Shown: piece by piece, positions 4,845 to 35,792 of the stretch
Layout of the letters: every line of letters begins with the position of its first letter
Position numbering within the stretch: position 1 is the stretch's first letter
Virus record (IMG/VR): IMGVR_UViG_3300021130_000163
Span: 1-35,792 of that record
Direction: 5' to 3' (one strand)
Length of the DNA stretch: 35,792 nucleotides
Source: a virus
Position numbers and translations under genes: made by a program
Notes under the pieces: model-generated
Told to the model about the DNA's origin: nothing
The model's database searches: none
Seen by the model: only the letters and a program-made list of their open reading frames with translations

Positions 4845-5477
4845 ATGTTGACAAAAGAGAAATTATTAGCAATCGTCCCAGGCGCAAAGCATAGCAATAT
4901 CGATCTAGATGTTCTATGTAATGATATGAATGAAGTTTTCGCTGACGAAAGCAACCAATTAAATACTGTAAACCGTCAAGCTGGATTCATCGCACAATGT
5001 GCTCATGAATCTGGAAATTTCTGCCATGCTGCAGAAAATTTAAATTACAAAGCTGCTGGTTTAATGCACGTATTTCCAAAATATTTCCCAGATGAGTTAC
5101 ATGCTTCAATGTACGAACATCAACCAGAAAAGATTGCCAACCGCATTTATGCTAATCGCATGGGTAATGGTGACGAAGCTTCTGGTGATGGATACAAATA
5201 TCGTGGTCGTGGATTCATTCAGTTGACTGGTAAAGATAACTATACCAAATGCGGACATGCAATCGGTAAGGATCTAACTATGGATCCAGATTATCTAACA
5301 ACTCCAGAAGGTGCATTAAAGTCAGCACTATGGTTCTGGAATGCTCATAACTTGAGCATGTTAGCAGACACCGATGATGTTCTTCATATGACTAAGAAGA
5401 TCAACGGTGGAACTATTGGTTTAGAAGAAAGAACTGCTCTTTATCATAAAGCTAAAGAAGTTCTATCGGCTGAATAA
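4845..5477 (+). CDS. GH19-family endolysin (chitinase-like lysozyme)
   Basis: A 210-residue protein of the glycoside hydrolase 19 fold used by many phages as peptidoglycan-degrading endolysins. The catalytic Glu lies in AHESGNF (Glu55), and the family block 'ANRMGNGD...GDGYKYRGRGFIQLTGKDNY' is present at about residues 102-132, followed by the C-terminal helices with ALWFWNAHNL. The length is a single catalytic domain, with no cell-wall-binding domain or signal peptide, so it would need a holin to reach the periplasm. A GGAG ribosome site lies about 6-10 bases before the ATG. The stop overlaps the next ATG (TAATG). It opens the lysis-related region, which continues with holin-like genes at 7874-8672 and spanins at 15627-16378. 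Confidence 0.93.
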   Translation: MLTKEKLLAIVPGAKHSNIDLDVLCNDMNEVFADESNQLNTVNRQAGFIAQCAHESGNFCHAAENLNYKAAGLMHVFPKYFPDELHASMYEHQPEKIANRIYANRMGNGDEASGDGYKYRGRGFIQLTGKDNYTKCGHAIGKDLTMDPDYLTTPEGALKSALWFWNAHNLSMLADTDDVLHMTKKINGGTIGLEERTALYHKAKEVLSAE

Positions 5478-7680: not shown

Positions 7681-7874
7681 TGTCAGTAGAACAAGATATT
7701 CAAAATCAAATTGATGGAGTTAAGGCTCAATTAGCCAATAACGAATTAACATCAGCAGAAGCTGTTGAATTTTTAAATGAACTGAAAGATGTTCAAGCAG
7801 CTTTAGGAACTGCTGATGCTGAAATTGCAGTTCGTTTAATTACAGAAGCAATACAAGTATTAGGCAGTGTGTAA
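7680..7874 (+). CDS. Small helical protein of unknown function
   Basis: A 64-residue acidic, fully helical-looking protein without Cys, signal or membrane segment. The heptad-like pattern of Leu, Val and Ile suggests a short coiled coil. It is translationally coupled on both sides (TAATG at the start and at the end), tying it to the lipoprotein before it and the membrane protein after it. I do not recognise a family. Confidence 0.6.
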   Translation: MSVEQDIQNQIDGVKAQLANNELTSAEAVEFLNELKDVQAALGTADAEIAVRLITEAIQVLGSV

Positions 7875-8098
7875 TGTCTTTCTTGGAAGTCATTGCGTCC
7901 ATTCATAAAGATGGAAGAGACGGCTCTGTTTCTTCAAAAAGAGTCGTCACAACTATTTCATTTTTATTATGCGCAGTTGCTTTCGTTGCTAATCTCTTTT
8001 GGGGCATAAAAGTTGCTGAATATATGTACAATTCAATGATGTCTATCACATTGGGTGGACTTGCAGCGACCGCTTCAGAGAAGTTTTCACCTAAATAA
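7874..8098 (+). CDS. Holin-like two-TM membrane protein
   Basis: A 74-residue membrane protein with a polar N-terminus (about residues 1-23, with a Lys/Arg pair) and two hydrophobic segments: about 25-45 (VVTTISFLLCAVAFVANLFWG) and about 50-66, ending in a charged tail. Small size, two membrane segments and a position downstream of an endolysin and among other small membrane proteins fit a class II-type holin. The sequence gives no direct proof of function. Coupled by TAATG to the preceding gene. Confidence 0.6.
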   Translation: MSFLEVIASIHKDGRDGSVSSKRVVTTISFLLCAVAFVANLFWGIKVAEYMYNSMMSITLGGLAATASEKFSPK

Positions 8099-8109
8099 TA
8101 GGATTAGAA

Positions 8110-8397
8110 ATGGATTTTGATGTAATATTTCAACTGATTGGCGATTTGGGTGCACCTGTTGTTGGTGCATTTGCCGCAGGTATATTCGTCCATTTCGTTA
8201 TTTCGTACATCCTTGAGAGTGCTTTGAAAGCTATCAGGGGTTTACAAGGAATTATTACAGCATTGGACAATCGCGTGAAAACAATGAATCACGATATTGT
8301 TCGTGTAGATGCTGTGGTTAGTACTGCTTTAGGATTACGTCCAGACTTGGAAAGAATCGCTAGAGCGGATGGTAAGAACGATGCTCGTAGAGATTAA
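8110..8397 (+). CDS. Small one-TM membrane protein (holin-like paralogue 1)
   Basis: A 95-residue protein with a short N-terminal amphipathic stretch (MDFDVIFQLIGDLGAP), one long hydrophobic segment (about residues 16-36) and a soluble helical tail with the pattern ALDNRVKTMNHDIVRVDAVVS. It resembles the next gene product in length, order of parts and spacing: an M-x-F-D start, a Gly-x-Pro before the membrane segment, then a helix ending in V-S. The two are probably tandem paralogues. The function is likely holin-like or an accessory in lysis; this is inferred from context. Confidence 0.55.
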   Translation: MDFDVIFQLIGDLGAPVVGAFAAGIFVHFVISYILESALKAIRGLQGIITALDNRVKTMNHDIVRVDAVVSTALGLRPDLERIARADGKNDARRD

Positions 8398-8399
8398 AA

Positions 8400-8672
8400 A
8401 TGCAATTTGACCCTGTACAAGCATCACAATTAGTTAAACAATATGGCTTTCCAACAGTTGCTGCTGTAGGTATGAGTTATTTTGTTTACTTCATTTATAA
8501 ATTCGTCACTGGCAAGCTGATGCCTTTAGTTGCCGAGACGAATGTAACTCTGATTGCTTTGATTGACCGAATTCGTATGCTAGACAATGATCTCATTAGA
8601 CTACAACAAAAAGTGAGTGTTGTTTTGCAGATGAAAGAGGATAGAAATAATGCAGATAAACCTAAAACTTGA
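8400..8672 (+). CDS. Small one-TM membrane protein (holin-like paralogue 2)
   Basis: A 90-residue protein with the same plan as its upstream neighbour: MQFDPVQ start, G-F-P before a membrane segment (about residues 17-37), and a helix with IDRIRMLDNDLIRLQQKVS matching the neighbour's NRVKTMNHDIVRVDAVVS. The C-terminus is polar. The two genes are separated by two bases. Together they may form hetero-oligomers, or serve as holin and antiholin, but nothing in the sequence distinguishes these roles. Confidence 0.55.
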   Translation: MQFDPVQASQLVKQYGFPTVAAVGMSYFVYFIYKFVTGKLMPLVAETNVTLIALIDRIRMLDNDLIRLQQKVSVVLQMKEDRNNADKPKT

Positions 8673-8784
8673 AGTGTTAAAGGTTGTCACTCTTGAGTTC
8701 TCTCTTTCTTCTGATAACAAGGAGAAAAAGGATGAACAAAAAGATACACCTAAGCCTGTTGCTGCTACTGACAACAAGTCTTAG
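8650..8784 (+). CDS. Possible overlapping 44-residue micro-ORF
   Basis: An ATG at 8650 opens a 44-codon frame that overlaps the end of the preceding membrane-protein gene by 23 bases and the start of the CsgF-like gene by 53 bases. Its product has a hydrophobic, strand-like N-terminus (MQINLKLEVLKVVTLEF) and a charged Lys/Glu/Pro tail. It fills what would otherwise be a 59-base gap, in a genome where gaps are rare. No ribosome site stands out and no family is recognised, so it may be a chance frame. Confidence 0.3.
   Translation: MQINLKLEVLKVVTLEFSLSSDNKEKKDEQKDTPKPVAATDNKS
8719..8724 (+). promoter_or_regulatory. Ribosome binding site for the CsgF-like gene
   Basis: AAGGAG lies 7 bases before the ATG at 8732. 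It fixes the start of the CsgF-like protein at MNKK, directly giving a signal peptide, in preference to an upstream TTG at 8684 that would put charged residues before it. Confidence 0.7.
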
Positions 8785-9205
8785 TGCATTCGCAGCTCCA
8801 CTACCAGACTTTGCATTTAAAAGTCCATCATTCAACGGTAATGGTTACGGCACATACGTTCTAACAATTGAGAACGAAGAATATACACGCCAACAACAAA
8901 TCCAACAAGCATTGTTGGCTGCTCAACAGCAAGCTAAAAACGATGCCGCTAACACTCCACTAAATCAATTCCTAACAAACTTAGAGTCTCGCATTCTTGC
9001 GCAGATTAGTCAGAATCTTGCCACAGCTATGTTTGCTGGTGGTTCAGGAACATCTGGCACAATGAACTTTCAAGGCAACACAATCTTCTGGCAGAATGAC
9101 GGTAAAGAAATTACATTGCAAGTAACTGACGCTTTGGGTAATGTCACTACAATTAATATTCCTCTTGGACAATGGAATATCCTATCGTCAGGAACTGGGG
9201 GATAA
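8732..9205 (+). CDS. csgF: CsgF-like curli secretion accessory protein
   Basis: A 157-residue secreted protein. Residues 1-21 form a signal peptide with a likely AFA/A cleavage. The mature N-terminus (DFAFKSPSFNGNGYG) matches the CsgF segment that in E. coli inserts into the CsgG pore (TFQFRNPNFGG type). Then follow a Gln/Ala-rich helix (about 52-72), the family helix 'PLNQFLTNLESRILAQIS' (76-93) and a C-terminal strand region with ITLQVTDALGNVTTINIPLG (127-146), as in CsgF of many proteobacteria. In bacteria CsgF couples the CsgG secretion pore to fibre nucleation at the cell surface. The gene sits directly upstream of csgG, with one base between them. Known function is from the family; activity in a phage-infected cell is inference. 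Confidence 0.85.
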   Translation: MNKKIHLSLLLLLTTSLSAFAAPLPDFAFKSPSFNGNGYGTYVLTIENEEYTRQQQIQQALLAAQQQAKNDAANTPLNQFLTNLESRILAQISQNLATAMFAGGSGTSGTMNFQGNTIFWQNDGKEITLQVTDALGNVTTINIPLGQWNILSSGTGG

Positions 9206-9206
9206 A

Positions 9207-10067
9207 ATGAATAAACTGATAATAGTTGCGGCGCTTTCGCTGCTGTCGGGTTGCGCAGGATTTCAAAAACTTGGACAAGCAACTGGTCATGAATTTAAAC
9301 CTCAAGTAGCACAAGAAAAGTTACAAAAAGAATTTGATATTCTTCCACCACCAGCTGGTCCAAAAGTTACTGTTGCAGTTTACAAGTTTCAAGATCTAAC
9401 AGGACAACGTAAGACCTCAGCAAACTTTGCTAGTTTCTCAACAGCAGTCACTCAAGGCGCTGAACCATTCTTAATCCATGCTTTACAAGAAGTAAGCAAA
9501 GGCGAATGGTTTGAAGTTGTAGAAAGAACAAACGTTGATGATTTGATCAAAGAAAGAACAATCATCAAACAAATGCGCGATGCTTATGATGGTAAAGATG
9601 CAAAACCATTGCCTCCACTACAATTCGCTGGAATTATTATAGAAGGTGGAATCGTGGGATATGATAGTTCTACTGAATCAGGTGGAATGGCATACAAATG
9701 GTTAGGAATTGGTCCACAAACACAGTACTCAAAAGACATTGTAACTGTTTCACTAAGAGCTGTATCAGTAAACAGCGGTAAAGTTCTTGCATCTGTAACA
9801 GTACAGAAAACAATTTATTCGACTGCGGATTCAATCGCAGCGCTAAAATTCTTCAAAGACGGCACTGCCGCATTTGAAGCTGAGACTGGCTTGACAATAA
9901 ATGAGCCAGGAACATTGGCAGTAAAAGCAACTGTGGAAGCTGCCGTTGTTGAATTAATCAAGGAAGGAGCGAAGAAAGAAGTCTGGGACTTCAAGTATCC
10001 TGCTCCAAGTCCCACTCCTTGGTGGAAATATGATGAATGGGATTTATCACACGCAAAGGTAAAGTAA
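9207..10067 (+). CDS. csgG: CsgG-like outer-membrane curli secretion pore
   Basis: A 286-residue lipoprotein. Signal and lipobox LLSGC put the lipidated Cys at residue 16. The CsgG core follows closely: VTVAVYKFQDLTGQ (54-67), FSTAVTQGAEPFLIHAL (77-93), WFEVVERTNVDDLIKERTII (101-120), IIEGGIVGYDSSTESGG (144-160), GIGPQTQYSKDIVTVSLRAV (167-186) and KTIYS (201-205). E. coli CsgG is 277 residues and forms a nine-subunit outer-membrane channel. At the constriction loop the Phe of the FSTAV block is retained, while the Tyr and Asn of E. coli appear as Ala and Ser by my alignment. The C-terminal tail (about 262-286) is Pro/Trp-rich. Upstream in-frame codons from 9141 are rejected because they precede the signal. 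Linked to csgF and to the curlin gene (1 base gap). Confidence 0.93.
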   Translation: MNKLIIVAALSLLSGCAGFQKLGQATGHEFKPQVAQEKLQKEFDILPPPAGPKVTVAVYKFQDLTGQRKTSANFASFSTAVTQGAEPFLIHALQEVSKGEWFEVVERTNVDDLIKERTIIKQMRDAYDGKDAKPLPPLQFAGIIIEGGIVGYDSSTESGGMAYKWLGIGPQTQYSKDIVTVSLRAVSVNSGKVLASVTVQKTIYSTADSIAALKFFKDGTAAFEAETGLTINEPGTLAVKATVEAAVVELIKEGAKKEVWDFKYPAPSPTPWWKYDEWDLSHAKVK

Positions 10068-10068
10068 G

Positions 10069-10902
10069 ATGAAAACAAGTAAATTAATTACCTTCGTTAT
10101 GGGTATAATAATTGCTTTTAATGTACTTGCTGGAGATAACAGCATTTATATTCAACAAGCTGGTGACAATGCCACTGTAAATATGACACAAGATGGGGCA
10201 GGCAACATTATTCAAGGTGTTCCAAGCGTAGGTTCTGGTTCAACAAACCCAGCACTTATTAATGGTAATAACAACACTGTAAATGTTACACAAACAGGTA
10301 CAGGCGACACTTTGAGTCTTGGTGTTCAAACTTCTGTTGCTAACGGAATTAGTGGTGGAAACATTTTTAACTATTCTGTAACAGGCAACAACTCGAATGC
10401 ATACATCGACAGTAATGCTAATGGTTTGGGCGTAAGCGCAAGTAACTCCATTACTGCAACACAAACTGGCAACAATTCATATTTTAATGCTAATGTTCTA
10501 GGAACAGCTAACGTTTTAAATGTGACTACTGCTGGTGGCTCATATAACAGTGTAACTGCGACTCAAAACGGTAATAACAATAATGACACAATTAATGTTT
10601 CTGGTGGTGGCAACAACACAATCAACATTGAACAAGGTATTGGCGGTTCAGCATTGGGTGGATTACAATCTGCACAATTTAGCTATAATGGTACTGTTAA
10701 TTTAACTGTATCTGGAGCAAGCAATACCGTTGACATTGGCCAAACAGGTAGCACAGGGTTTACTGACACAGCAACTATTTCATTAACTGGTTCAGGCAAT
10801 AGTGTGAATATTTTACAAAATGCAGCTATTGGCAACACAACAATCAGTTTGACAAGTGTCGGTTCAAATAACTCGTTCACATTACACACGAACGCTCACT
10901 AA
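10069..10902 (+). CDS. Curlin-repeat (CsgA/CsgB-like) amyloid protein
   Basis: A 277-residue secreted protein. A signal peptide (about residues 1-21, ending VLA) is followed by a mature protein rich in Asn, Thr, Gly, Ser and Gln and nearly free of charge. The first repeat (NSIYIQQAGDNATVNMTQDG) fits the curlin pattern S-x5-Q-x-G-x-x-N-x-A-x-V. Similar units recur with Q-x-G and N-N-x spacings (for example VNVTQTG, ITATQTG, VTATQNG, INIEQG, VDIGQTG and VNILQN), roughly a dozen strand-turn units. It is longer than E. coli CsgA or CsgB (about 151 residues). It directly follows csgG, as expected for a substrate of that pore. Whether it is the major fibre subunit or the nucleator cannot be told from sequence. 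Confidence 0.85.
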   Translation: MKTSKLITFVMGIIIAFNVLAGDNSIYIQQAGDNATVNMTQDGAGNIIQGVPSVGSGSTNPALINGNNNTVNVTQTGTGDTLSLGVQTSVANGISGGNIFNYSVTGNNSNAYIDSNANGLGVSASNSITATQTGNNSYFNANVLGTANVLNVTTAGGSYNSVTATQNGNNNNDTINVSGGGNNTINIEQGIGGSALGGLQSAQFSYNGTVNLTVSGASNTVDIGQTGSTGFTDTATISLTGSGNSVNILQNAAIGNTTISLTSVGSNNSFTLHTNAH

Positions 10903-10903
10903 A

Positions 10904-12034
10904 ATGAACAGAGGGGTATTAATTCTACTCCTTCTGTTTGCTTCTGTGAGTTATGCTTCTTTCGCAGGAATAGGTTCTATTACTGAACAAACAAATTCTC
11001 CTGGGACAATAAAAAGATCAAATCAAATTATTTCTGGAGTAAAAGGTTCTCCGATTGAAATGAATGATTCTGTTCAAACTCAAATCGGAAAACTTGGAAT
11101 ATTATTCGAGGATCAAACTCGCGTAGAAATTAATGAACACTCCAAATTAGTCATTGACGATTTCGTTTACGATCCAAAAAGCAAATCAGGTGGCAAACTT
11201 GGATTGAAATTCGCACAGGGAACTATGCGCTATGCTTCAGGTGCAATTGCTCATAATGATCCAAGCAGTGTAAAGTTGAACACTCCATCAGCCACAATTG
11301 GTGTTCGTGGTACTGACTTCTCAGCAACTGTTGATGAGTTCGGTGAAAGCACAATTATTCTATTGCCAAGCTGCCCTAAGAATTGGGTAGACATTGAACG
11401 CGATTGTAAAACAGGAATCATTGATGTGTACAATGACGCAGGTTTAGTTACACTTGATAAACCATTTCAAGGAACTAAAGTTGTTAATCGTAACATGCCT
11501 CCATTAAAGCCAACTACTTTGAATCTAACAGCGGACCAGATTAATAATCTTTTGATTGTTTCTCCACCACAAGAACTAACTCAAAAAGATAAGAAAGATA
11601 AAGGTGAACAAAAAAGCTACCACGCTGGTGACATGCTTGAAGTTGATTTTCTAAAACAAGACTTCCTAAAGAACGAATTAGCGCAGAATTTTTTTGGTGA
11701 TAATCCTCTAACACAACCATTGTTACAACAGAGCTTTCTAGAAGACATATTTGATATTTTGTCTAAACAGTTATTGCAAGATAACTCTGAGTTGTTAGCG
11801 AATTTATTGAATCCTGAAAATCAATTATTACCTGACTGGTTTAAAGAAAGTTTAGTTACAAAACAAGTAACCACATTAGAAGTAGATCTATGTAGAAATG
11901 ACGGCAGCAACGTTCAATGTGTTTATGTGCCGAAAGATCAAAATACATTGCTTGTACAAGTACAAGACGGTGTTACTATTAAAAATAGAGTAAATAGTGG
12001 TAAAAGTACAATTATAACATTGAGACAGAACTAA
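10904..12034 (+). CDS. FecR-domain periplasmic or surface protein
   Basis: A 376-residue exported protein. A signal peptide spans about residues 1-18 (LILLLLFASVSYA). A FecR domain covers about 40-165: GSPIEMNDSVQTQIGKLG, then a beta-rich segment with FEDQTRVEINEHSKL, and the family signature TPSATIGVRGTDFSATV near 125-142. Two Cys (SCPKNW, RDCKTG) follow and could form a disulfide. The C-terminal half is Leu/Gln-rich helical and ends in a strand region. There is no membrane anchor or partner sigma factor, unlike classical FecR. In many bacteria secreted FecR-domain proteins are encoded next to CHASE2 adenylate cyclases, as here with one gene between. The ATG at 10904 is chosen over an upstream GTG-type start because it places the signal at the N-terminus. 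Confidence 0.85.
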   Translation: MNRGVLILLLLFASVSYASFAGIGSITEQTNSPGTIKRSNQIISGVKGSPIEMNDSVQTQIGKLGILFEDQTRVEINEHSKLVIDDFVYDPKSKSGGKLGLKFAQGTMRYASGAIAHNDPSSVKLNTPSATIGVRGTDFSATVDEFGESTIILLPSCPKNWVDIERDCKTGIIDVYNDAGLVTLDKPFQGTKVVNRNMPPLKPTTLNLTADQINNLLIVSPPQELTQKDKKDKGEQKSYHAGDMLEVDFLKQDFLKNELAQNFFGDNPLTQPLLQQSFLEDIFDILSKQLLQDNSELLANLLNPENQLLPDWFKESLVTKQVTTLEVDLCRNDGSNVQCVYVPKDQNTLLVQVQDGVTIKNRVNSGKSTIITLRQN

Positions 12035-13317
12035 TGAAAAGATTATTTGCAGCATTACTATTATTGATTTGTTTTCCTGCCAAAGCAGATATTACTAACG
12101 AACATTTTAGTTTCAGTCAAGTCTTTGACGTACAATGGTACATCAGCGGCGGTGTATTGCATGCTTCAAGTTTCAATTATCTTTTTGCCAGCCAACCTTC
12201 TAATGCTAGATTGACTTCAAGTCAAACAGCAGCATATGCCAATGCTGGCGATTATATCGCATTCTTTCACAGTACAACTAATCCTGGAACTTATGGTTTA
12301 GGCGTTTATGATCCTAACGGAAATCTAGTTAGAGTATTAGATAACACTGGAACATTTACTGCATTGGCAAATGGCGCGATATTTTATAATGGTGCAGGAA
12401 TGTGGGGGACGTTGTTTACAACTTTACAGGGATACGCTATCGGTGGAAGTGGAAGCTGGACAGTTACTGTAAGTAATCCTTCTAACAGTTATATGCAGTC
12501 ATACACTCCAACCAACACACAGCCACTGGGTACTGGTCAAACATATACACCTACACCAACATATACAAGTGTAATTACATCTGCTGAGCAAACAAGATAC
12601 AATGCAGCTGAAGCTCGCCTCAATGCTTTAAGCGGAGATAGCATTTACATCTCACAATCCTCTGGTGGTGGGAATATTGTAAGCGTCATACAGAATGGTA
12701 AGAAAGAAAGCGTTGATGGTATTAATCAACAAAATGCGCAAATACAAGGTGGCGGTAATATCGTAACAGTCAATCAAGGTGATCCTGTTGCTTTATATGG
12801 TAACAATCTAATTGATTTGAGTGTCTTGGGAAGTTCAAATACATTGAACCTCAATCAAGGATACGATACAAATGGAAACTATACTGGCACTGATATGGGT
12901 GGACATTATCAATATGTTTCAATAAATGGTTCTGCGAACAATGTCACAACACAGCAAGAAGGTCAAAGTCAATATGGTGAAGTGAACATCACTGGGAACA
13001 ATAATACACAAATTATGGTCCAAACAGGATTCAATCATCAATTGTTCTCTATGATAAATGGTAACAGTAATACTATAAATACAATGCAGACTGGAGCTGC
13101 TGGAAACTTTCTTGACATTACGCTTTCTGGTGACGGGAACTCAGCTATTGTCAATCAAAGTGGGACCACACAAAATAAAGCAACAATAAGTATAACAAAT
13201 GCGGGCGGTCCAGGCAGTGTCAATTTAACCCAAACTGGTGGGCAGGTTTATAGCATAAGCACAACTTGTGTAACTGCAGGAGGCTGTGGCACCGTTACTG
13301 TAAGACAAGGAAACTAA
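12034..13317 (+). CDS. Large curlin-repeat protein with extra N-terminal domain
   Basis: A 427-residue secreted protein. A signal peptide spans residues 1-18 (ending PAKA). Residues about 19-160 form a non-repetitive, beta-rich domain (FSFSQVFDVQWYISGG ... GDYIAFFHSTTNPGTYGLGVYDPNGNLV) that I do not recognise by family. A Thr/Pro/Tyr-rich linker (about 160-185) leads to curlin-type repeats from about 205 to the end (DSIYISQSSGGGNIVSVIQNG, VTVNQG, LNLNQG, INTMQTG, AIVNQSG, VNLTQTG, VTVRQGN). Two Cys near the end (TTCVTAGGCGT) could form a disulfide. The N-terminal domain could anchor the amyloid or bind a surface. It overlaps the FecR gene's stop by one base. Likely a second curli subunit, perhaps nucleator or anchor; the role is inferred. 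Confidence 0.78.
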   Translation: MKRLFAALLLLICFPAKADITNEHFSFSQVFDVQWYISGGVLHASSFNYLFASQPSNARLTSSQTAAYANAGDYIAFFHSTTNPGTYGLGVYDPNGNLVRVLDNTGTFTALANGAIFYNGAGMWGTLFTTLQGYAIGGSGSWTVTVSNPSNSYMQSYTPTNTQPLGTGQTYTPTPTYTSVITSAEQTRYNAAEARLNALSGDSIYISQSSGGGNIVSVIQNGKKESVDGINQQNAQIQGGGNIVTVNQGDPVALYGNNLIDLSVLGSSNTLNLNQGYDTNGNYTGTDMGGHYQYVSINGSANNVTTQQEGQSQYGEVNITGNNNTQIMVQTGFNHQLFSMINGNSNTINTMQTGAAGNFLDITLSGDGNSAIVNQSGTTQNKATISITNAGGPGSVNLTQTGGQVYSISTTCVTAGGCGTVTVRQGN

Positions 13318-13318
13318 T

Positions 13319-15361
13319 ATGAAGAAGATATTGTTAAGTCCTTGGACAGCCTTAATTACTTTAGCTGTAATGTTGGCAGTTCGCGTTGTAGATCCAACTT
13401 TCGTAGAAAGTGTTCGATTAAGATATTTCGATACACTGATTACCAATAAGAAACCCTCTCCCGAAGAAGTTCCAATCAACATCGTCAACATTGACGAAGA
13501 TGCATTGAACAAATATGGTCAATGGCCATTACCTCGTACTGAATACGCTAAGATCGTAAATGAATTGTATGCTCGTAACGCAGGACTTGTTGTTCTTGAC
13601 GTTATGTTTAGCGAACAAGATCGTTTAAATGGCGACAGTGCTTTGGCTTCTGTTATGATTCAACATCCAGTTGTATTGGTAAATGTACCGAGCGATAAAA
13701 CTAAGAATACTCCAAAGAAACCTGGAACTGCTGTAATCAACAGCGACTTCCAAGATCGCATCGTAAAGTATCCAGGGATTATTGCTAATATTCCATTGCT
13801 AGAACAATATGCATTTGGTGTTGGTACAATCAACACACTTCCTGAAATTGATGGCGTCAATCGCCGTGTTCCTTTGATCACAAGTGTCAATGGTAATCTA
13901 TATCCATCATTGGGTATGGAAATTATTCGTGCTGCTTCAGGTGACAGCACAACACAAATTAAATTAAATGAGCTTGGTGTTGAGAAAATGCGAGTGCCAG
14001 CATTTGGTCCAATCACCACAGATAATCTTGGTCGTATTTGGGTAGACTTCTCTACACCAATTAAAACAACTTCACTTACAAATCTACCAAAAGATTTCGG
14101 CAACAGTATTGTAATCGTTGGACCAACTGCTGCAGGTATTGCTAACCCAGTTCCTACTGCCGTTGGCGCTGTTTATCCGCATTATTTACAAGCACAAGTT
14201 GCAGCAACCATGATGAATGGTGTTGTAATTTCAAGACCAGACTACGCTGACGGATTAGAGTTGCTATTCGTTGCTATTTCAGGTATACTATTATTAGTTC
14301 TAACAAGGTGGACTTATGTCGGTTTGGGATCGATTGTTGTTATCGTTGGTGGTGCTGCGTATGGCAGCCACTATGCTTTTAGTAATCATCTTTTACTATT
14401 TGATATCACTCTCCCCATCGCAGCGACAATCCTTGTGTCACTCCACGCCTATGGTGTCAAGTTTGTCTCAGAATTTTTGCAGAAGCAACAAATAAAGAAA
14501 CAGTTCGGCACTTACTTGTCGCCAGCAATGGTTGAGAAGTTACAAAAGAATCCAGAGTTGTTAGCACTTGGCGGCGAATCAAGAGAACTGTCAATTATGT
14601 TTACTGATGTTCGCGGCTTCACAACTATCAGCGAACATTATGGTAAAGACGTTCAAGGTCTAACAAAGATCATGAATCGTTATATGACAGCAATGACTGC
14701 CAAGATTTTAGAGAACAACGGAACTCTTGACAAGTACATTGGTGATGCTCAAATGGCTTTTTGGAATGCTCCACTTGATGACGCAGAACACGCAAAGAAT
14801 GCTGTAAGAACTGCGATTGCTATGATGACCGACTTGGAGAATTTTAATGAGGAAATTGCTAAAGAAGGAGTTCCTGCTTTTGGGATGGGTCTTGGTATTA
14901 ATACTGATGTTGTTGTCGTGGGCAATATGGGTAGTAGTCAACGTTTTGACTATACTTGCCTTGGTGATGGAGTAAATTTAGCAAGCAGACTAGAAGGTCA
15001 ATCAAAACCATATGGTGTTAAGATTGTTCTTGGACCAAGAACTGCTGAATTGGTCAAAGACGAATTCCCAGTAATTGAGTTAGACTTACTTGCTGTTAAG
15101 GGTAAGACTGAACCAGTTAAAATTTATACTTTAGCACCATCTAATGATAGCATGGCTGATGCAATGCATGTTAAATTCCTAAAAGCATATAGAAAAGGTG
15201 ACTGGAAAGGTGCCAAGTTTTATATTAATGGCATGAAGAACGATGGATTGAAAACTGCATGGGGCGGTCAGATGGCTAAATATTATGACATGATGCTTGA
15301 GAGAATGGAAGGAAATCCTCCAGAAAATTGGGATGGCGTCTATAGAGCTACCTCAAAATGA
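13319..15361 (+). CDS. CHASE2-domain receptor adenylate cyclase (class III)
   Basis: A 680-residue membrane receptor. One membrane segment near residues 7-22 is followed by a periplasmic CHASE2 sensor (about 25-300, with NIVNIDEDALNKYGQWPLPR and GLVVLDVMFSE typical of the family), then three membrane segments (about 310-385), a linker helix and a class III cyclase domain (about 420-605). Catalytic residues are all present: metal aspartates Asp430 (FTDVRGF) and Asp476 (KYIGDAQ), adenine-selecting Lys472 and Thr546, and transition-state Asn553 and Arg557 (GDGVNLASR). The domain should therefore make cAMP from ATP. CHASE2 senses unknown periplasmic signals. The partner is plausibly the FecR-domain protein two genes upstream. 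Phage-borne intact receptor cyclases are unusual to my knowledge. Confidence 0.93.
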   Translation: MKKILLSPWTALITLAVMLAVRVVDPTFVESVRLRYFDTLITNKKPSPEEVPINIVNIDEDALNKYGQWPLPRTEYAKIVNELYARNAGLVVLDVMFSEQDRLNGDSALASVMIQHPVVLVNVPSDKTKNTPKKPGTAVINSDFQDRIVKYPGIIANIPLLEQYAFGVGTINTLPEIDGVNRRVPLITSVNGNLYPSLGMEIIRAASGDSTTQIKLNELGVEKMRVPAFGPITTDNLGRIWVDFSTPIKTTSLTNLPKDFGNSIVIVGPTAAGIANPVPTAVGAVYPHYLQAQVAATMMNGVVISRPDYADGLELLFVAISGILLLVLTRWTYVGLGSIVVIVGGAAYGSHYAFSNHLLLFDITLPIAATILVSLHAYGVKFVSEFLQKQQIKKQFGTYLSPAMVEKLQKNPELLALGGESRELSIMFTDVRGFTTISEHYGKDVQGLTKIMNRYMTAMTAKILENNGTLDKYIGDAQMAFWNAPLDDAEHAKNAVRTAIAMMTDLENFNEEIAKEGVPAFGMGLGINTDVVVVGNMGSSQRFDYTCLGDGVNLASRLEGQSKPYGVKIVLGPRTAELVKDEFPVIELDLLAVKGKTEPVKIYTLAPSNDSMADAMHVKFLKAYRKGDWKGAKFYINGMKNDGLKTAWGGQMAKYYDMMLERMEGNPPENWDGVYRATSK

Positions 15362-15626: not shown

Positions 15627-16121
15627 ATGTTGTTCTGGTTATTAAAGTTTTTACCTGCAATGTTGATTCATGGTTTCATGGGTCTGGCATTATTAGCAGT
15701 TGCACTGTCGTTTATTCCATTCGTGCCATATAAAATAGTTTTAAAATGGGGTGGAATCGCAGCAGTTGCTTTAGGATTATTCCTAGAAGGTTGCTTGCTT
15801 ACACAACAAGCATGGGAAGCACAAGTTGCTGCTCTACAAGATAAGATCAAAGAATCAGAAGCGAAAGCTGCTACGATTAATACTGAGATTGTAGAGAAAG
15901 TTGTAACTCAAGATAAAGTTATTAAAGAGAAAGGTGATCAAATCATTAAGTATATCGATCGCGAAGTTACAAAAGTTGATAGCACTTGTACTATACCAGA
16001 AGTTGTAATTAAAGTGCATAATGCTGCTGCTCTTAATCAATCGCTTGATGTAGAACAGCCATTAACACCAAGTACAGTTGTAGATACTTCAGCTCATAAT
16101 GCAGCGGCGGTGCCAAAATGA
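15627..16121 (+). CDS. i-spanin-like inner-membrane lysis protein (Rz-like)
   Basis: A 164-residue protein with two hydrophobic segments in its first 56 residues (about 8-30 and 35-56), followed by a long periplasmic-type coiled coil (about 60-125, EAQVAALQDKIKESEAKA ... EKGDQIIKYIDREVTKV) and a polar tail containing a single Cys (STCTIPE). This plan, with the downstream small lipoprotein overlapping its stop, is that of a phage i-spanin, which joins the inner membrane to an outer-membrane o-spanin and fuses them at lysis. Having two membrane segments and not one is a variation. The ATG at 15627 is used because it directly follows the preceding stop and starts the first hydrophobic segment. 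Confidence 0.75.
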   Translation: MLFWLLKFLPAMLIHGFMGLALLAVALSFIPFVPYKIVLKWGGIAAVALGLFLEGCLLTQQAWEAQVAALQDKIKESEAKAATINTEIVEKVVTQDKVIKEKGDQIIKYIDREVTKVDSTCTIPEVVIKVHNAAALNQSLDVEQPLTPSTVVDTSAHNAAAVPK

Positions 16122-16378
16122 AAAAAATAATCCCACTATTATTGATCTTATCAGGTTGCGCTACAGTTCCAGTAGAACGCCATTTTCCAGAAGCACCAAA
16201 AGAACTTATGGAAAAATGCGGAAATTTACAGACAATTGATAAGCAACAAGTTGTTTTTAGCGAGTTTTTAAAAACAGTTACAACAAATTACACTCAGTAT
16301 TATCATTGCGTTAATTTATTGAATGGTTGGCAAGATTGGTATGTTCAACAGAAACAAAACTTTGATTCTGTAAAATAA
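16118..16378 (+). CDS. o-spanin-like outer-membrane lipoprotein (Rz1-like)
   Basis: An 86-residue lipoprotein with the signal MKKIIPLLLILSGC, lipobox Cys14, then ATVPVERHFPEAPKELMEKCG, a Pro-containing stretch typical of o-spanins. Two further Cys are present. It starts four bases before the i-spanin stop (ATGA), the usual arrangement for a spanin pair. In lysis the lipidated protein sits in the outer membrane and contacts the i-spanin coiled coil. Confidence 0.8.
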   Translation: MKKIIPLLLILSGCATVPVERHFPEAPKELMEKCGNLQTIDKQQVVFSEFLKTVTTNYTQYYHCVNLLNGWQDWYVQQKQNFDSVK

Positions 16379-16824: not shown

Positions 16825-17901
16825 ATGTCAGTTTACATTGATCGAAAATATCTTTTGCTAGTCTCATCGAGACTTGAAAGATTCGCACAAAAGAAAGATG
16901 ATCTGTTTAATTTCAGATGCCCCTTTTGCGGCGATTCTAAAAAGAACAAATTAAAAGCCAGAGGATATGTTTTTAGGAAAAACAATGATTACTTCTATAC
17001 ATGCCACAACTGCCATCTCGGAACGACATTCTCAAAGTTCCTCAAGCACATCGACAGTCACACCTACTCACAATACACACTCGAACGTTACTCCAACGGA
17101 GAGAACGGACATTCAAATTACACAAAGCCAAATTTTGACCTCGCAGGACCCAAAGCATCAGAGGTATTTTCTGGAGAAAGAGCTGATTTACAAGATAACG
17201 AACGGGAAAGTCGTGTTAATATCAGAAACTGCTCCTTCCCAGGTCTGGTTAGCGTAGATAAACTAGAGCCTGAACACTACGCTCGGAAATATATAGAAGG
17301 TAGGAAGATTCCAGAGCAATTCTGGAATGAAGTCTTTTACACTGAAAAATATAAGGACTTCATGGACACTGCTTTTCCTGATCACGGAAAAGAAGATATT
17401 CCTAATGATGATCGTATCGTATTGTTTTACACGGACAAGGAAGGCAACATCACCAATGTCACAGGTCGAGCACTTGGTCAGTCTAAAGTCCGTTACTGTA
17501 CGGTCAAAATTACAGAAGATAAAAAGCTGTTCGGATTGCACAGGTTGCAGTTCGACAAAACTGTTTATGTCCTCGAGGGTCAATTCGATTCTTTCTTTAT
17601 TGAGAATAGCGTTGCCAGCGGCGATAGTAATTTGGGCAGTTCTGCAGACTATCTTGATGCATCTGAAGTAGTTTTAGTTTATGATCGTGAGCCAAGAAAT
17701 AAAGATATCGTAAAACAAATCAACAAAGCAATTCAAAATGATTATGCTGTTGTTTTGTTTCCTGATACTATTGAAGGCAAAGATATTAATGAAATGATTT
17801 TGAGTGGAATGAGTTCTGAAGAAATTATGAGTGTTATGAAAGAAAACACGTTTCAAGGGCTTACTGCTAAACTTAAGTTTGTAGACTGGAGAAAATGTTG
17901 A
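16825..17901 (+). CDS. T4 gp61-like DNA primase
   Basis: A 358-residue primase. The N-terminal zinc-binding domain shows CPFCGDSKKNKLKARGYVF (about 31-50) and the second pair CHNC near residue 62. The TOPRIM-type core follows: YVLEGQFDSFF (near 250), a D-S-N-L-G-S-S block, VVLVYDREPRN and the late acidic VVLFPDTIEGKDINEMI. Length and motif order fit phage T4 gp61 (342 residues), which makes short RNA primers on the helicase for lagging-strand synthesis. A GTG at 16798 would add nine residues. The ATG at 16825 is preferred because related primases begin 'MSxYIDxKYL'. It overlaps the next gene by seven bases. Confidence 0.88.
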   Translation: MSVYIDRKYLLLVSSRLERFAQKKDDLFNFRCPFCGDSKKNKLKARGYVFRKNNDYFYTCHNCHLGTTFSKFLKHIDSHTYSQYTLERYSNGENGHSNYTKPNFDLAGPKASEVFSGERADLQDNERESRVNIRNCSFPGLVSVDKLEPEHYARKYIEGRKIPEQFWNEVFYTEKYKDFMDTAFPDHGKEDIPNDDRIVLFYTDKEGNITNVTGRALGQSKVRYCTVKITEDKKLFGLHRLQFDKTVYVLEGQFDSFFIENSVASGDSNLGSSADYLDASEVVLVYDREPRNKDIVKQINKAIQNDYAVVLFPDTIEGKDINEMILSGMSSEEIMSVMKENTFQGLTAKLKFVDWRKC

Positions 17902-18635
17902 AAAAGTATAAATCAATTTTTATTTCAGATGTCCACTTAGGAACTCGAGGTTGCAAAGCTGAATTGCTTTGCGACTTTCTAAAGAATAATAGTTGCGAGA
18001 ATCTATTTCTAGTCGGAGACATTATCGATGGTTGGAGATTAGAACGCAACTTCTATTGGCCACAATCTCACACAAACGTGATTCGCCGCTTTCTCACAGC
18101 AGCTAAACGTGACACTAATGTGATATACATTGCTGGCAACCATGATGAATTTCTAAGAAAATTCTTAAGATACGATATTTCTATCGGCAATATTCTAATC
18201 GAGAATCAACACATGCATACTGGCGTTGACGGTAAGAAATATCTTGTCGTTCATGGTGATATGTTTGACACTGCTATTCGCAACAAACTAAAATGGCTGT
18301 ACCATCTAGGCGACTTCTTATATGATGTTCTATTACGATTGAATGTCGTTGTAAACTTTTTCCGCAAGTCATTCGGCTACAAATATTGGAGCCTAAGTAA
18401 ATACCTCAAAGGTGTAACCAAAGAGGCTGTTTCTTACATGTCAGACTTTGAGGAATTGATAGCGGATTATTGTAAGAAACGCAATGCGGATGGTATTATT
18501 TGCGGTCACATTCATAAAGCTGATATCAAAGAAATCAATGGTATTATGTATATGAATGATGGTGATTGGGTGGAATCATGCACTGCTCTTGTTGAGCATC
18601 ATGATGGAACTTGGGAGATTATAAACTGCTTATGA
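17895..18635 (+). CDS. plcP: PlcP-like metallophosphoesterase (phospholipase C type)
   Basis: A 246-residue calcineurin-like phosphoesterase with all five metal motifs: SDVHLG (Asp12, His14), VGDIIDG (Asp42), GNHDEF (Asn82, His83), VVHGD (His120) and CGHIH (His205, His207). The family blocks GDIIDGWRL, YWPQSH, YWSLSKYLK and NDGDWVESCTALVEH match PlcP (SMc00171-type) proteins. These are often misannotated as LpxH/UDP-2,3-diacylglucosamine diphosphatase, but in marine bacteria and Sinorhizobium they cut phospholipids to diacylglycerol under phosphate limitation. The overlap with the primase (7 bases) and the ATGA junction to the glycosyltransferase put it in one operon. The PlcP call rests on remembered family similarity and the neighbour; an LpxH role is the alternative. 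Confidence 0.78.
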   Translation: MLKKYKSIFISDVHLGTRGCKAELLCDFLKNNSCENLFLVGDIIDGWRLERNFYWPQSHTNVIRRFLTAAKRDTNVIYIAGNHDEFLRKFLRYDISIGNILIENQHMHTGVDGKKYLVVHGDMFDTAIRNKLKWLYHLGDFLYDVLLRLNVVVNFFRKSFGYKYWSLSKYLKGVTKEAVSYMSDFEELIADYCKKRNADGIICGHIHKADIKEINGIMYMNDGDWVESCTALVEHHDGTWEIINCL

Positions 18636-19624
18636 AAAAGAAAATAGTTATATTTACAGATGCTTGGTATCCACAAGTAAATGGCGTGGTTACAACTTAC
18701 AGTAATCTTGTACAACACATTGATCATGACATATATGATGTTGATGTTGTTGAACCATCTATGTTTAGCACATTCAACATTCCATTCTATAAAGAAATCC
18801 AATTATCATGGTGCACTCAAAATAGAATGCGAGAAATCATTAAAGATCTTGGCGTAGTGTATCGCTACCATATCGCAACTGAAGGACCAATTGGCTATGC
18901 TGCAAAAACAGTATTAGACAGTATGGGAATTGGATACACAACTGCATATCACACTAAGTTTCCAGAATATCTAGAAAGAATGATGTTGATTCCTCATAAA
19001 TTGACGAAAAGATACATCGATCATTTCCATAAAAAATCAAGATTTGTTTTTGTGCCTTCTAAATCTGTAGCTAATGAAAATCCGCAATGGAATACGAAGA
19101 TAATTGGCAAGGGTGTTGGCGAACATTTTACACCAAGACAAAATGAAAAACTTTATAATAAAGATTCCAAAGTTCTTCTTTATGTTGGACGTGTTTCTTC
19201 TGAGAAAAATGTTGAAGACTTCTGTAGAATTTATATTCCAGGAACACATAAAATCGTTGTTGGAAATGGTCCAGACAAGAAGAGACTCAAAAGAAAATAT
19301 CCTGATGTAAATTTTGTTGGATATAAATTTGGTCACGAATTAGCTCAGTTTTATAGAAGTGCTGATGTATTTATTTTCCCTAGCAAGACAGATACTTTCG
19401 GCAATGTTATTCTAGAAGCAATGGCATGCGGTACACCTGTAGCTGCTTATGATGTAACTGGTCCACGCGATCAAATCACCAATGGTTTGAATGGTTACAT
19501 GGGCATGAGTTTAACAAATGCAGTAAACAAATGTTTTGCTTTAGATCGAAATAACGTTTATAATAGCGTTACGCATTTGACTTGGAAGAATGCAGCGGAT
19601 AAATTTATAGAGGATATATCATGA
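18632..19624 (+). CDS. Agt/MgtA-like GT4 glycosyltransferase (glycolipid synthesis)
   Basis: A 330-residue GT-B fold glycosyltransferase of family 4. The N-terminus (IVIFTDAWYPQVNGVVTTY) and PSMFSTFNIPFYKEIQLSW are hallmarks of the MgtA/Agt group. The acceptor loop ATEGPIGYAAK, the nucleotide-sugar domain start LLYVGRVSSEKN and the donor motif PSKTDTFGNVILEAMACGTPVAAYDVTGP are present. In bacteria this group sits next to plcP and adds a hexose or glucuronic acid to diacylglycerol, making phosphorus-free glycolipids. Here it starts by ATGA overlap with the PlcP-like gene, the same arrangement. An alternative role in glycan synthesis is possible. The ATG at 18632 is chosen over an upstream TTG because MKKKIVIFTD is the family's natural start. 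Confidence 0.82.
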   Translation: MKKKIVIFTDAWYPQVNGVVTTYSNLVQHIDHDIYDVDVVEPSMFSTFNIPFYKEIQLSWCTQNRMREIIKDLGVVYRYHIATEGPIGYAAKTVLDSMGIGYTTAYHTKFPEYLERMMLIPHKLTKRYIDHFHKKSRFVFVPSKSVANENPQWNTKIIGKGVGEHFTPRQNEKLYNKDSKVLLYVGRVSSEKNVEDFCRIYIPGTHKIVVGNGPDKKRLKRKYPDVNFVGYKFGHELAQFYRSADVFIFPSKTDTFGNVILEAMACGTPVAAYDVTGPRDQITNGLNGYMGMSLTNAVNKCFALDRNNVYNSVTHLTWKNAADKFIEDIS

Positions 19625-35284: not shown

Positions 35285-35792
35285 ATGAGCGATTTAGAAG
35301 GTAAGAAAGTCCCACAGAATGTGGTGTTTAAGACTCGTGTTCGTGATGAGTCGATTGGTGGTCCAAACCCATACCGTTGGGAAGATGTAAAGAGCAAGGA
35401 CTATTTTAAGCGCAAGAGAGTTGTATTATTCTCACTCCCAGGTGCTTTCACCCCAACATGCTCAACTTATCAACTACCAGATTATGAGAAGTTGTTCCCA
35501 GAGTTTCAAGCATGCGGTATTAAAGATATCTACTGCTTGTCTGTTAATGATGCTTTCGTTATGAATGCATGGGCAAAAAGCCAAAATCTTGAGAATGTTA
35601 AAGTTATTCCAGACGGCAGCGGAGTTTTCACTAAGAAGATGAAGATGCTTGTTAAGAAAGATAATCTTGGCTTTGGTGCACGCTCATGGCGTTATGCTGC
35701 TGTTGTTAAGAATGGCGTTATCGAAAAGATGTTCGTTGAGCCAGGATTTGAAGACAACTGCGCAACTGACCCATACGGTGAGTCAAGCCCAC
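35285..35792 (+). CDS. Peroxiredoxin (Prx5-like), truncated by window end
   Basis: A partial gene whose reading frame runs off the end. At least 169 residues are present. The peroxidatic Cys lies in LPGAFTPTCSTYQLPDYEK (Cys59), and the family blocks IYCLSVNDAFVMNAWAK, IPDGSGVFTKKM and RSWRYAAVVKNGVIEKMFVEPG follow. This is the Prx5/hybrid type that reduces hydrogen peroxide using glutaredoxin or thioredoxin; bacterial versions may continue into a glutaredoxin domain, which would lie beyond the window. With the SOD and thioredoxin in this window it completes a superoxide-to-water set. A TAAGGAG ribosome site lies a few bases before the ATG, across the stop of the methyltransferase. Confidence 0.9.
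   Translation, partial: MSDLEGKKVPQNVVFKTRVRDESIGGPNPYRWEDVKSKDYFKRKRVVLFSLPGAFTPTCSTYQLPDYEKLFPEFQACGIKDIYCLSVNDAFVMNAWAKSQNLENVKVIPDGSGVFTKKMKMLVKKDNLGFGARSWRYAAVVKNGVIEKMFVEPGFEDNCATDPYGESSP

Follow-up and report, generated by a model that had tools for sequence, protein, structure and literature searches.

Curli cassettes with a cyclase in phages and bacteria

CsgF, CsgG, curlin repeats, FecR, and an adenylate cyclase were reported in pelagi-podophages and pelagi-myophages in 2022; that report infers an alphaproteobacterial origin of the cassette (PMC9599517). A phage curli cassette with a cyclase is therefore not a first report, and the cyclase is annotated in Pelagibacter phage HTVC008M and Methylophilales phage Melnitz. 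Published text places the regulators (FecR and the cyclase) outside bacterial T8SS/curli operons. Two further papers treat phage curli genes and leave the cyclase unnamed in the accessible portions of their text (PMC7029224, PMC9004378). The corresponding portions of PMC9599517 contain neither CHASE2 nor any discussion of catalytic residues or domain swapping.

Two bacterial systems resemble parts of the arrangement. The Sinorhizobium meliloti CHASE2 receptor cyclases CyaD1, CyaD2, and CyaK, described as AC/GCs, are activated through the outer-membrane protein NsrA and so depend on an outer-membrane event; unlike the protein studied here they are bacterial and signal via NsrA and Clr, and no curli/FecR set is described for them in the sections available (PMC13001267). 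In the Burkholderia BiofilmReg operon, which affects biofilm, a secreted LysM/FecR-domain protein adjoins a CHASE2 sensor, but the output is a histidine kinase/response regulator and curli genes are lacking (PMC5192318).

We analyzed a window of 35,792 nucleotides, the whole of IMG/VR record IMGVR_UViG_3300021130_000163, which is a 35.8-kb linear contig and a tailed-phage fragment. The phage origin claimed in the first-pass annotation is borne out by a primase (phrog_47, 1e-71), an endolysin (phrog_181, 2e-76), Rz-like spanin matches, and relatives of the window in contigs with Gp23/terminase; a bacterial or contaminant contig was rejected on the primase, the endolysin, and the many phage relatives. 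Ribonucleotide reductase and ThyX genes were recognized in the translations. Neither capsid nor terminase genes nor Rfam elements were found in the window, and no close isolate of this phage is among 50,697 phage records. A protein with an Fe/Mn superoxide dismutase C-terminal domain is also encoded on the contig (23531-24100), as is a redoxin/peroxiredoxin-like product (35285-35791). A GH19-type endolysin gene (4845-5477) lies upstream of the cassette, and overlapping i-spanin-like (15627-16121) and lipoprotein o-spanin-like (16118-16378) genes follow shortly downstream of the cyclase.

Adjoining CsgF, CsgG, curlin-repeat, FecR, and cyclase genes form a phage curli (T8SS) cassette in the order CsgF-CsgG-curlin-FecR-curlin-cyclase, all on the plus strand; gene content, order, and alphaproteobacterial affinity are those of the pelagiphage cassette as given in the accessible text of PMC9599517. 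The curli neighbors are recovered by Pfam, with the exception of curlin-like protein 2, which has no Pfam match. The features are as follows.

8110..8397, +, small single-TM and coiled-coil protein, phrog_18771, copy 1
8400..8672, +, small single-TM and coiled-coil protein, phrog_18771, copy 2
8732..9205, +, CsgF-like (Pfam CsgF, 1e-15)
9207..10067, +, CsgG outer-membrane curli pore, lipobox LSGC (Pfam CsgG, 3.4e-46)
10069..10902, +, curlin-repeat protein 1 (Pfam Curlin_rpt, 1.5e-6)
10904..12034, +, secreted FecR-domain protein, 376 aa (Pfam FecR 4e-9, AlphaFold2, Foldseek)
12034..13317, +, curlin-like repeat protein 2, N/Q/G-rich repeats (sequence; phage relatives annotated as curlin-associated repeat)
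13319..15361, +, predicted CHASE2 receptor adenylate (possibly guanylate) cyclase, 680 aa (Pfam CHASE2 and Guanylate_cyc, catalytic residues, AlphaFold2 model)
13340..13390, +, TM1, residues 8-24 (AlphaFold2 helix, hydrophobic sequence)
13361..14287, +, CHASE2 periplasmic sensor, Pfam residues 15-323, globular part about 30-308 (Pfam, AlphaFold2)
14246..14506, +, TM2-TM4, helices 310-328, 332-357, and 364-396 (AlphaFold2, sliding identities)
14582..15133, +, class III cyclase catalytic domain with D430, K472, D476, T546, N553, and R557 (Pfam, alignment, fold)
15134..15358, +, C-terminal helical tail, residues 606-680 (AlphaFold2, comparison with phage relatives)

The same six genes stand in the same order in HTVC008M and Melnitz, where a protein with CHASE2 and a class III cyclase (gp019 and gp104, respectively) is likewise the last cassette gene. 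Unlike these isolates, the window protein belongs to a distinct sequence clade, and a 328-kb T4-like contig is among its closest relatives; it is 38-40% identical overall to the HTVC008M and Melnitz cyclases, has T at position 546 (S in HTVC008M, D in Melnitz), and has a C-terminal tail that HTVC008M-type proteins lack. The new part for the specialist is the architecture, a conserved sensor with a swapped cyclase. In the accessible literature on these phages we also did not find the FecR linkage counts, the selection, the swaps, the tracking of the sensor by FecR, the CSS-type FecR, the Hyphomonas operon, or the 328-344 kb contigs described below.

The predicted receptor cyclase and its partners

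Class III cyclases are marked by two metal-binding Asp residues, a substrate-contacting Lys, and a transition-state Asn and Arg. The ORF begins with ATG 1 nt downstream of curlin-like gene 2, and its stop codon shares bases with the ATG of the next gene. Pfam CHASE2 (residues 15-323, 2.5e-40) and Guanylate_cyc (PF00211, residues 422-605, 4.7e-18) both score above cut-off in the 680-aa protein. The six catalytic residues named by the first-pass annotation (D430, K472, D476, T546, N553, and R557) are at exactly those positions and match the catalytic positions of CyaB (3r5g) and CyaC (1wc1) in a class III alignment. The full CHASE2 sensor and four membrane segments noted at the same time are also recovered, the latter as four long helices (8-24, 310-328, 332-357, and 364-396) in the AlphaFold2 model (mean pLDDT 86.9). 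The cyclase domain is modeled as a class III fold (TM-score about 0.87 against 3r5g, target-normalized; 1wc1 was also matched) that contains D430, D476, K472, N553, and R557. The layout is that of a receptor cyclase, with an N-terminal TM, CHASE2, three TMs, and a C-terminal output domain predicted to be cytoplasmic, and TM4 runs on into a cytoplasmic helix directly ahead of the domain-swap zone (AlphaFold2, sliding identities). Judged by sequence and model, the protein is apparently a catalytically competent class III receptor cyclase with cAMP or cGMP as its predicted product; K472 and T546 favor ATP as substrate under the known class III rules.

In FecR-type anti-sigma regulators, the periplasmic FecR domain is preceded by an anti-sigma domain in the cytoplasm and by a TM, and the protein has an ECF sigma partner. 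The FecR protein of the cassette consists of a signal peptide, a FecR/CSS fold (24-195), a disordered linker, and a C-terminal β domain (318-375) in the AlphaFold2 model, and Foldseek finds the fold to resemble the periplasmic cell-surface-signaling domain of the anti-sigma protein PupR (6ovk) and BDI_1681 (4m0h). Pfam and AlphaFold2 gave no anti-sigma domain and no second TM, FecR being the sole Pfam match. A signal peptide alone precedes the FecR domain and only the periplasmic CSS part is present; assignment as a FecR-type anti-sigma regulator was therefore rejected, and the label "iron regulator" is not literal. A resemblance of the FecR tail to a curlin repeat was weakly suggestive and was not used (>3 bits in 20% of tails, 6% of shuffled tails, and 0-1% elsewhere in the protein).

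Two tandem proteins of 90-95 aa each (phrog_18771) lie upstream of CsgF in the window. The family occurs in 132 of the 134 phage loci that have the cassette and is directly upstream of CsgF in 74, always as two copies there; among the 50,697 phage records, those with the family are exactly the six that hold CsgG and a full-length CHASE2 cyclase. A search seeded with the small protein gave 53 loci of ≥12 kb, of which 45 had a cyclase match; in two of these the match was to the C-terminal tail alone. The pair is linked to the cassette, not obligate, since a 282-kb contig has it with neither CsgG nor cyclase. The accessible text of PMC9599517 labels genes ahead of CsgF as histidine kinase ("HK, sometimes two"), and we guess that the phrog_18771 pair may be these genes; a search for HisKA/HATPase gave no kinase-domain match at E up to 1 in the 74-95 aa proteins ahead of the window CsgF. 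Two contigs (those of L396 and L398) have the small-TM pair and a CsgF match without a full cyclase, and each carries a 150-aa ORF that matches only residues 605-677 of the cyclase tail (G509 C1:4893-5117 and G510 C1:13481-13705).

Linkage, selection, and exchange of the cyclase domain

Relatives of the cyclase were found in at least 591 viral stretches with one query and at least 585 with another. Linkage was counted in the 144 phage cyclase loci with ≥5 kb of upstream DNA: FecR is ≤10 kb from the cyclase in 142 and CsgG in 141, and in 117 FecR precedes the cyclase on the same strand at a distance of ≤3 kb. A minority of loci have the cyclase in another place or orientation with respect to FecR, and some phages carry parts of the cassette without the rest. 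T4-like contigs of 328-344 kb with Gp23 and terminase also carry the cassette, which extends its range to very large T4-like phages.

D430 is invariant in 240/240 phage proteins, K472 and D476 in all 239 having the position, and R557 in all 238 reaching it. Between the window and its relative L002, dN/dS is 0.046 for the cyclase and 0.12 for CHASE2 (medians over 41 pairs: 0.041 and 0.078, respectively). These values indicate that the phage cyclase is under strong purifying selection, and a pseudogene was rejected on dN/dS and the invariant residues. Positions 546/553 differ by clade, being T/N in the window type, S/N in the HTVC008M type and in nearly all bacteria sampled, and D/S in the Melnitz type; the N553 to S change in the large Melnitz-type clade may lower catalysis.

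The catalytic domain is normally the better conserved, as in the window clade (cyclase 82% identical, CHASE2 60%). The isolates Melnitz and HTVC008M show the reverse, with 61% identity in CHASE2 and 37% in the cyclase, and so do contigs L074 and L255 (89% and 52%), between which identity drops after about residue 390. In 12 contigs a window-type sensor is joined to a D/S cyclase. Trees built separately from CHASE2 and from the cyclase conflict: the CHASE2 tree requires at least seven changes of cyclase type, and the AU test rejected placing the D/S sensors in one clade (P = 7.7e-66, a guide only because the group was picked after the motif had been seen). Chimeric assembly was rejected as the source since the isolate genomes show the swap too. 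The trees indicate at least seven exchanges of the cyclase domain while the sensors stayed conserved; that sensor and cyclase do not travel together is clear from Melnitz and HTVC008M by themselves. Such recurrent exchange beneath a conserved sensor suggests that selection is for "a cyclase output" and not for one catalytic lineage. The pattern is assay-independent evidence for a selected cyclic-nucleotide output in phages, and with it the reason for phage curli becomes a testable question.

FecR divergence follows the sensor, not the cyclase. Pairwise identity of FecR is correlated with that of CHASE2 (ρ = 0.53) and less so with that of the cyclase (ρ = 0.20), and the partial correlation between FecR and the cyclase given CHASE2 is -0.01. 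FecR is also correlated with CsgG (ρ = 0.63), and its correlation with CHASE2 given CsgG drops to 0.33, so that linkage accounts for part of the co-divergence of FecR and CHASE2.

The first-pass annotation had proposed a phylogeny to find a bacterial donor. CHASE2 cyclases are common in Alphaproteobacteria (100/289 sampled genomes, E < 1e-100), and FecR is ≤2 kb from the CHASE2 cyclase in at least 27 of 74 bacterial-assembly loci, an undercount because the FecR model was built from phages. The best bacterial match is a chromosomal operon in a Hyphomonas sp. TMED17 MAG (L084) with CsgF-CsgG-curlin-FecR-CHASE2 cyclase and TonB-receptor-like neighbors; unlike the window it has no second curlin gene and no small-TM pair, and its cyclase has S546 and is 41% identical to that of the window. 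The closest candidate is thus alphaproteobacterial; the Hyphomonas CHASE2 branches within the phage clade, so transfer could have run either way. FecR and the cyclase were both absent from the five other alphaproteobacterial curli loci examined, and we rejected the idea that such operons generally have them. The Hyphomonas operon is an exception, and it narrows the claim in the literature that bacterial curli operons do not contain FecR and the cyclase. L097, a short contig from a Flavobacteriaceae MAG, looks like stray phage DNA. In Bradyrhizobium (L144:1882-8814 and L139:786-4895), a FecR domain lies upstream of a CHASE2 cyclase inside huge frames (1,370-2,311 aa).

Candidate roles of the receptor

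We regard it as rather probable that the receptor cyclase is the cytoplasmic output arm of the phage curli cassette, reporting the state of FecR or curli as cAMP (or cGMP). During infection the phage would make the CsgG/CsgF pore and curlin-like subunits, and the secreted FecR-domain protein would act as a periplasmic reporter of the state of pore or curlin and engage the CHASE2 domain, directly or indirectly. TM4 and the cytoplasmic helix would then pass the signal to a homodimeric cyclase, whose cAMP (or cGMP) would signal to host effectors. The Burkholderia operon and the NsrA-dependent cyclases of S. meliloti are precedents. A phage-encoded cAMP effector was sought as the cNMP receptor PF00027, for which 12 phage records gave no match, among them HTVC008M, Melnitz, and four contigs >320 kb; the contigs may be incomplete and absence is not proof, and on this result the pathway would need a host effector. 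Of the two stimuli suggested at first reading, curli traffic is the better supported, by the linkage and by the co-divergence of FecR, and envelope stress is the weaker. An active receptor would mean that phages widespread in aquatic habitats equip their host with a transmembrane second-messenger circuit.

A broader version, to which we give somewhat less than even credence, is a modular envelope-signaling system in which FecR and CHASE2 would report secretion of phage-made curli and the cyclase would be a cartridge swapped among phage lineages (at least seven times), possibly together with the small-membrane-protein pair. If true, this would be a phage-encoded transmembrane second-messenger circuit watching a phage-built cell-surface structure.

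The earlier reading had the phage raise host cAMP to reprogram host metabolism or to time its late functions. The intact, selected, curli-linked receptor cyclase stands; a rise in host cAMP, metabolic reprogramming, and the timing of late functions would be possible consequences. The late-promoter motif TATAAATA occurs twice against 3.2 expected, T4-type motifs are not above chance, and late-promoter control was rejected. As a metabolic takeover, the cyclase would sense a small molecule or envelope stress, raise host cAMP, and retune carbon metabolism via a CRP-type regulator, with curli as historical hitch-hiking. The intact class III catalytic set fits this account, CHASE2 ligands in general lack assignment (PMC5192318), and an alphaproteobacterial operon of the same order exists from which the linkage could be inherited. 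We nevertheless consider it unlikely: a stand-alone cyclase should often occur without FecR or CsgG, yet 142/144 phage loci retain the linkage although the gene itself has recombined heavily, and FecR co-diverges with the sensor.

Less likely still is a lysis timer, in which the CsgGF pore would be a gated secretin/pinholin, as proposed for Melnitz in the accessible text of PMC9004378, and the cyclase part of its trigger or brake. The window cassette does lie between the endolysin (4845-5477) with small TM proteins (7874-8672) and the i-/o-spanin-like pair (15627-16378), but only one other fetched cassette has a spanin-like pair beside it and six have an endolysin near, hypothetical and tail/baseplate genes follow the cassette in Melnitz and HTVC008M, and the conserved curlin-like subunits would be needless for a simple pore; we rejected the idea that this neighborhood is a lysis module kept across phages. 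That the cyclase is a pseudoenzyme or a passenger in decay, with an irrelevant product, for which the N553 to S change in Melnitz-type members and the loss of the C-terminal tail in the HTVC008M type could speak, is highly improbable given dN/dS of about 0.04, the invariance of the metal-binding Asp, the Lys, and the Arg, and the fact that intact cyclase domains of other types have taken its place repeatedly.

Farther downstream in the window, an LpxH/PlcP-like metallophosphoesterase (17895-18635) is followed by a GT4 glycosyltransferase (18611-19624), and the two resemble the plcP-agt lipid-remodeling pair of marine bacteria. Several other phage loci likewise have relatives of the metallophosphoesterase and GT4 genes within a few kilobases of their cyclase.
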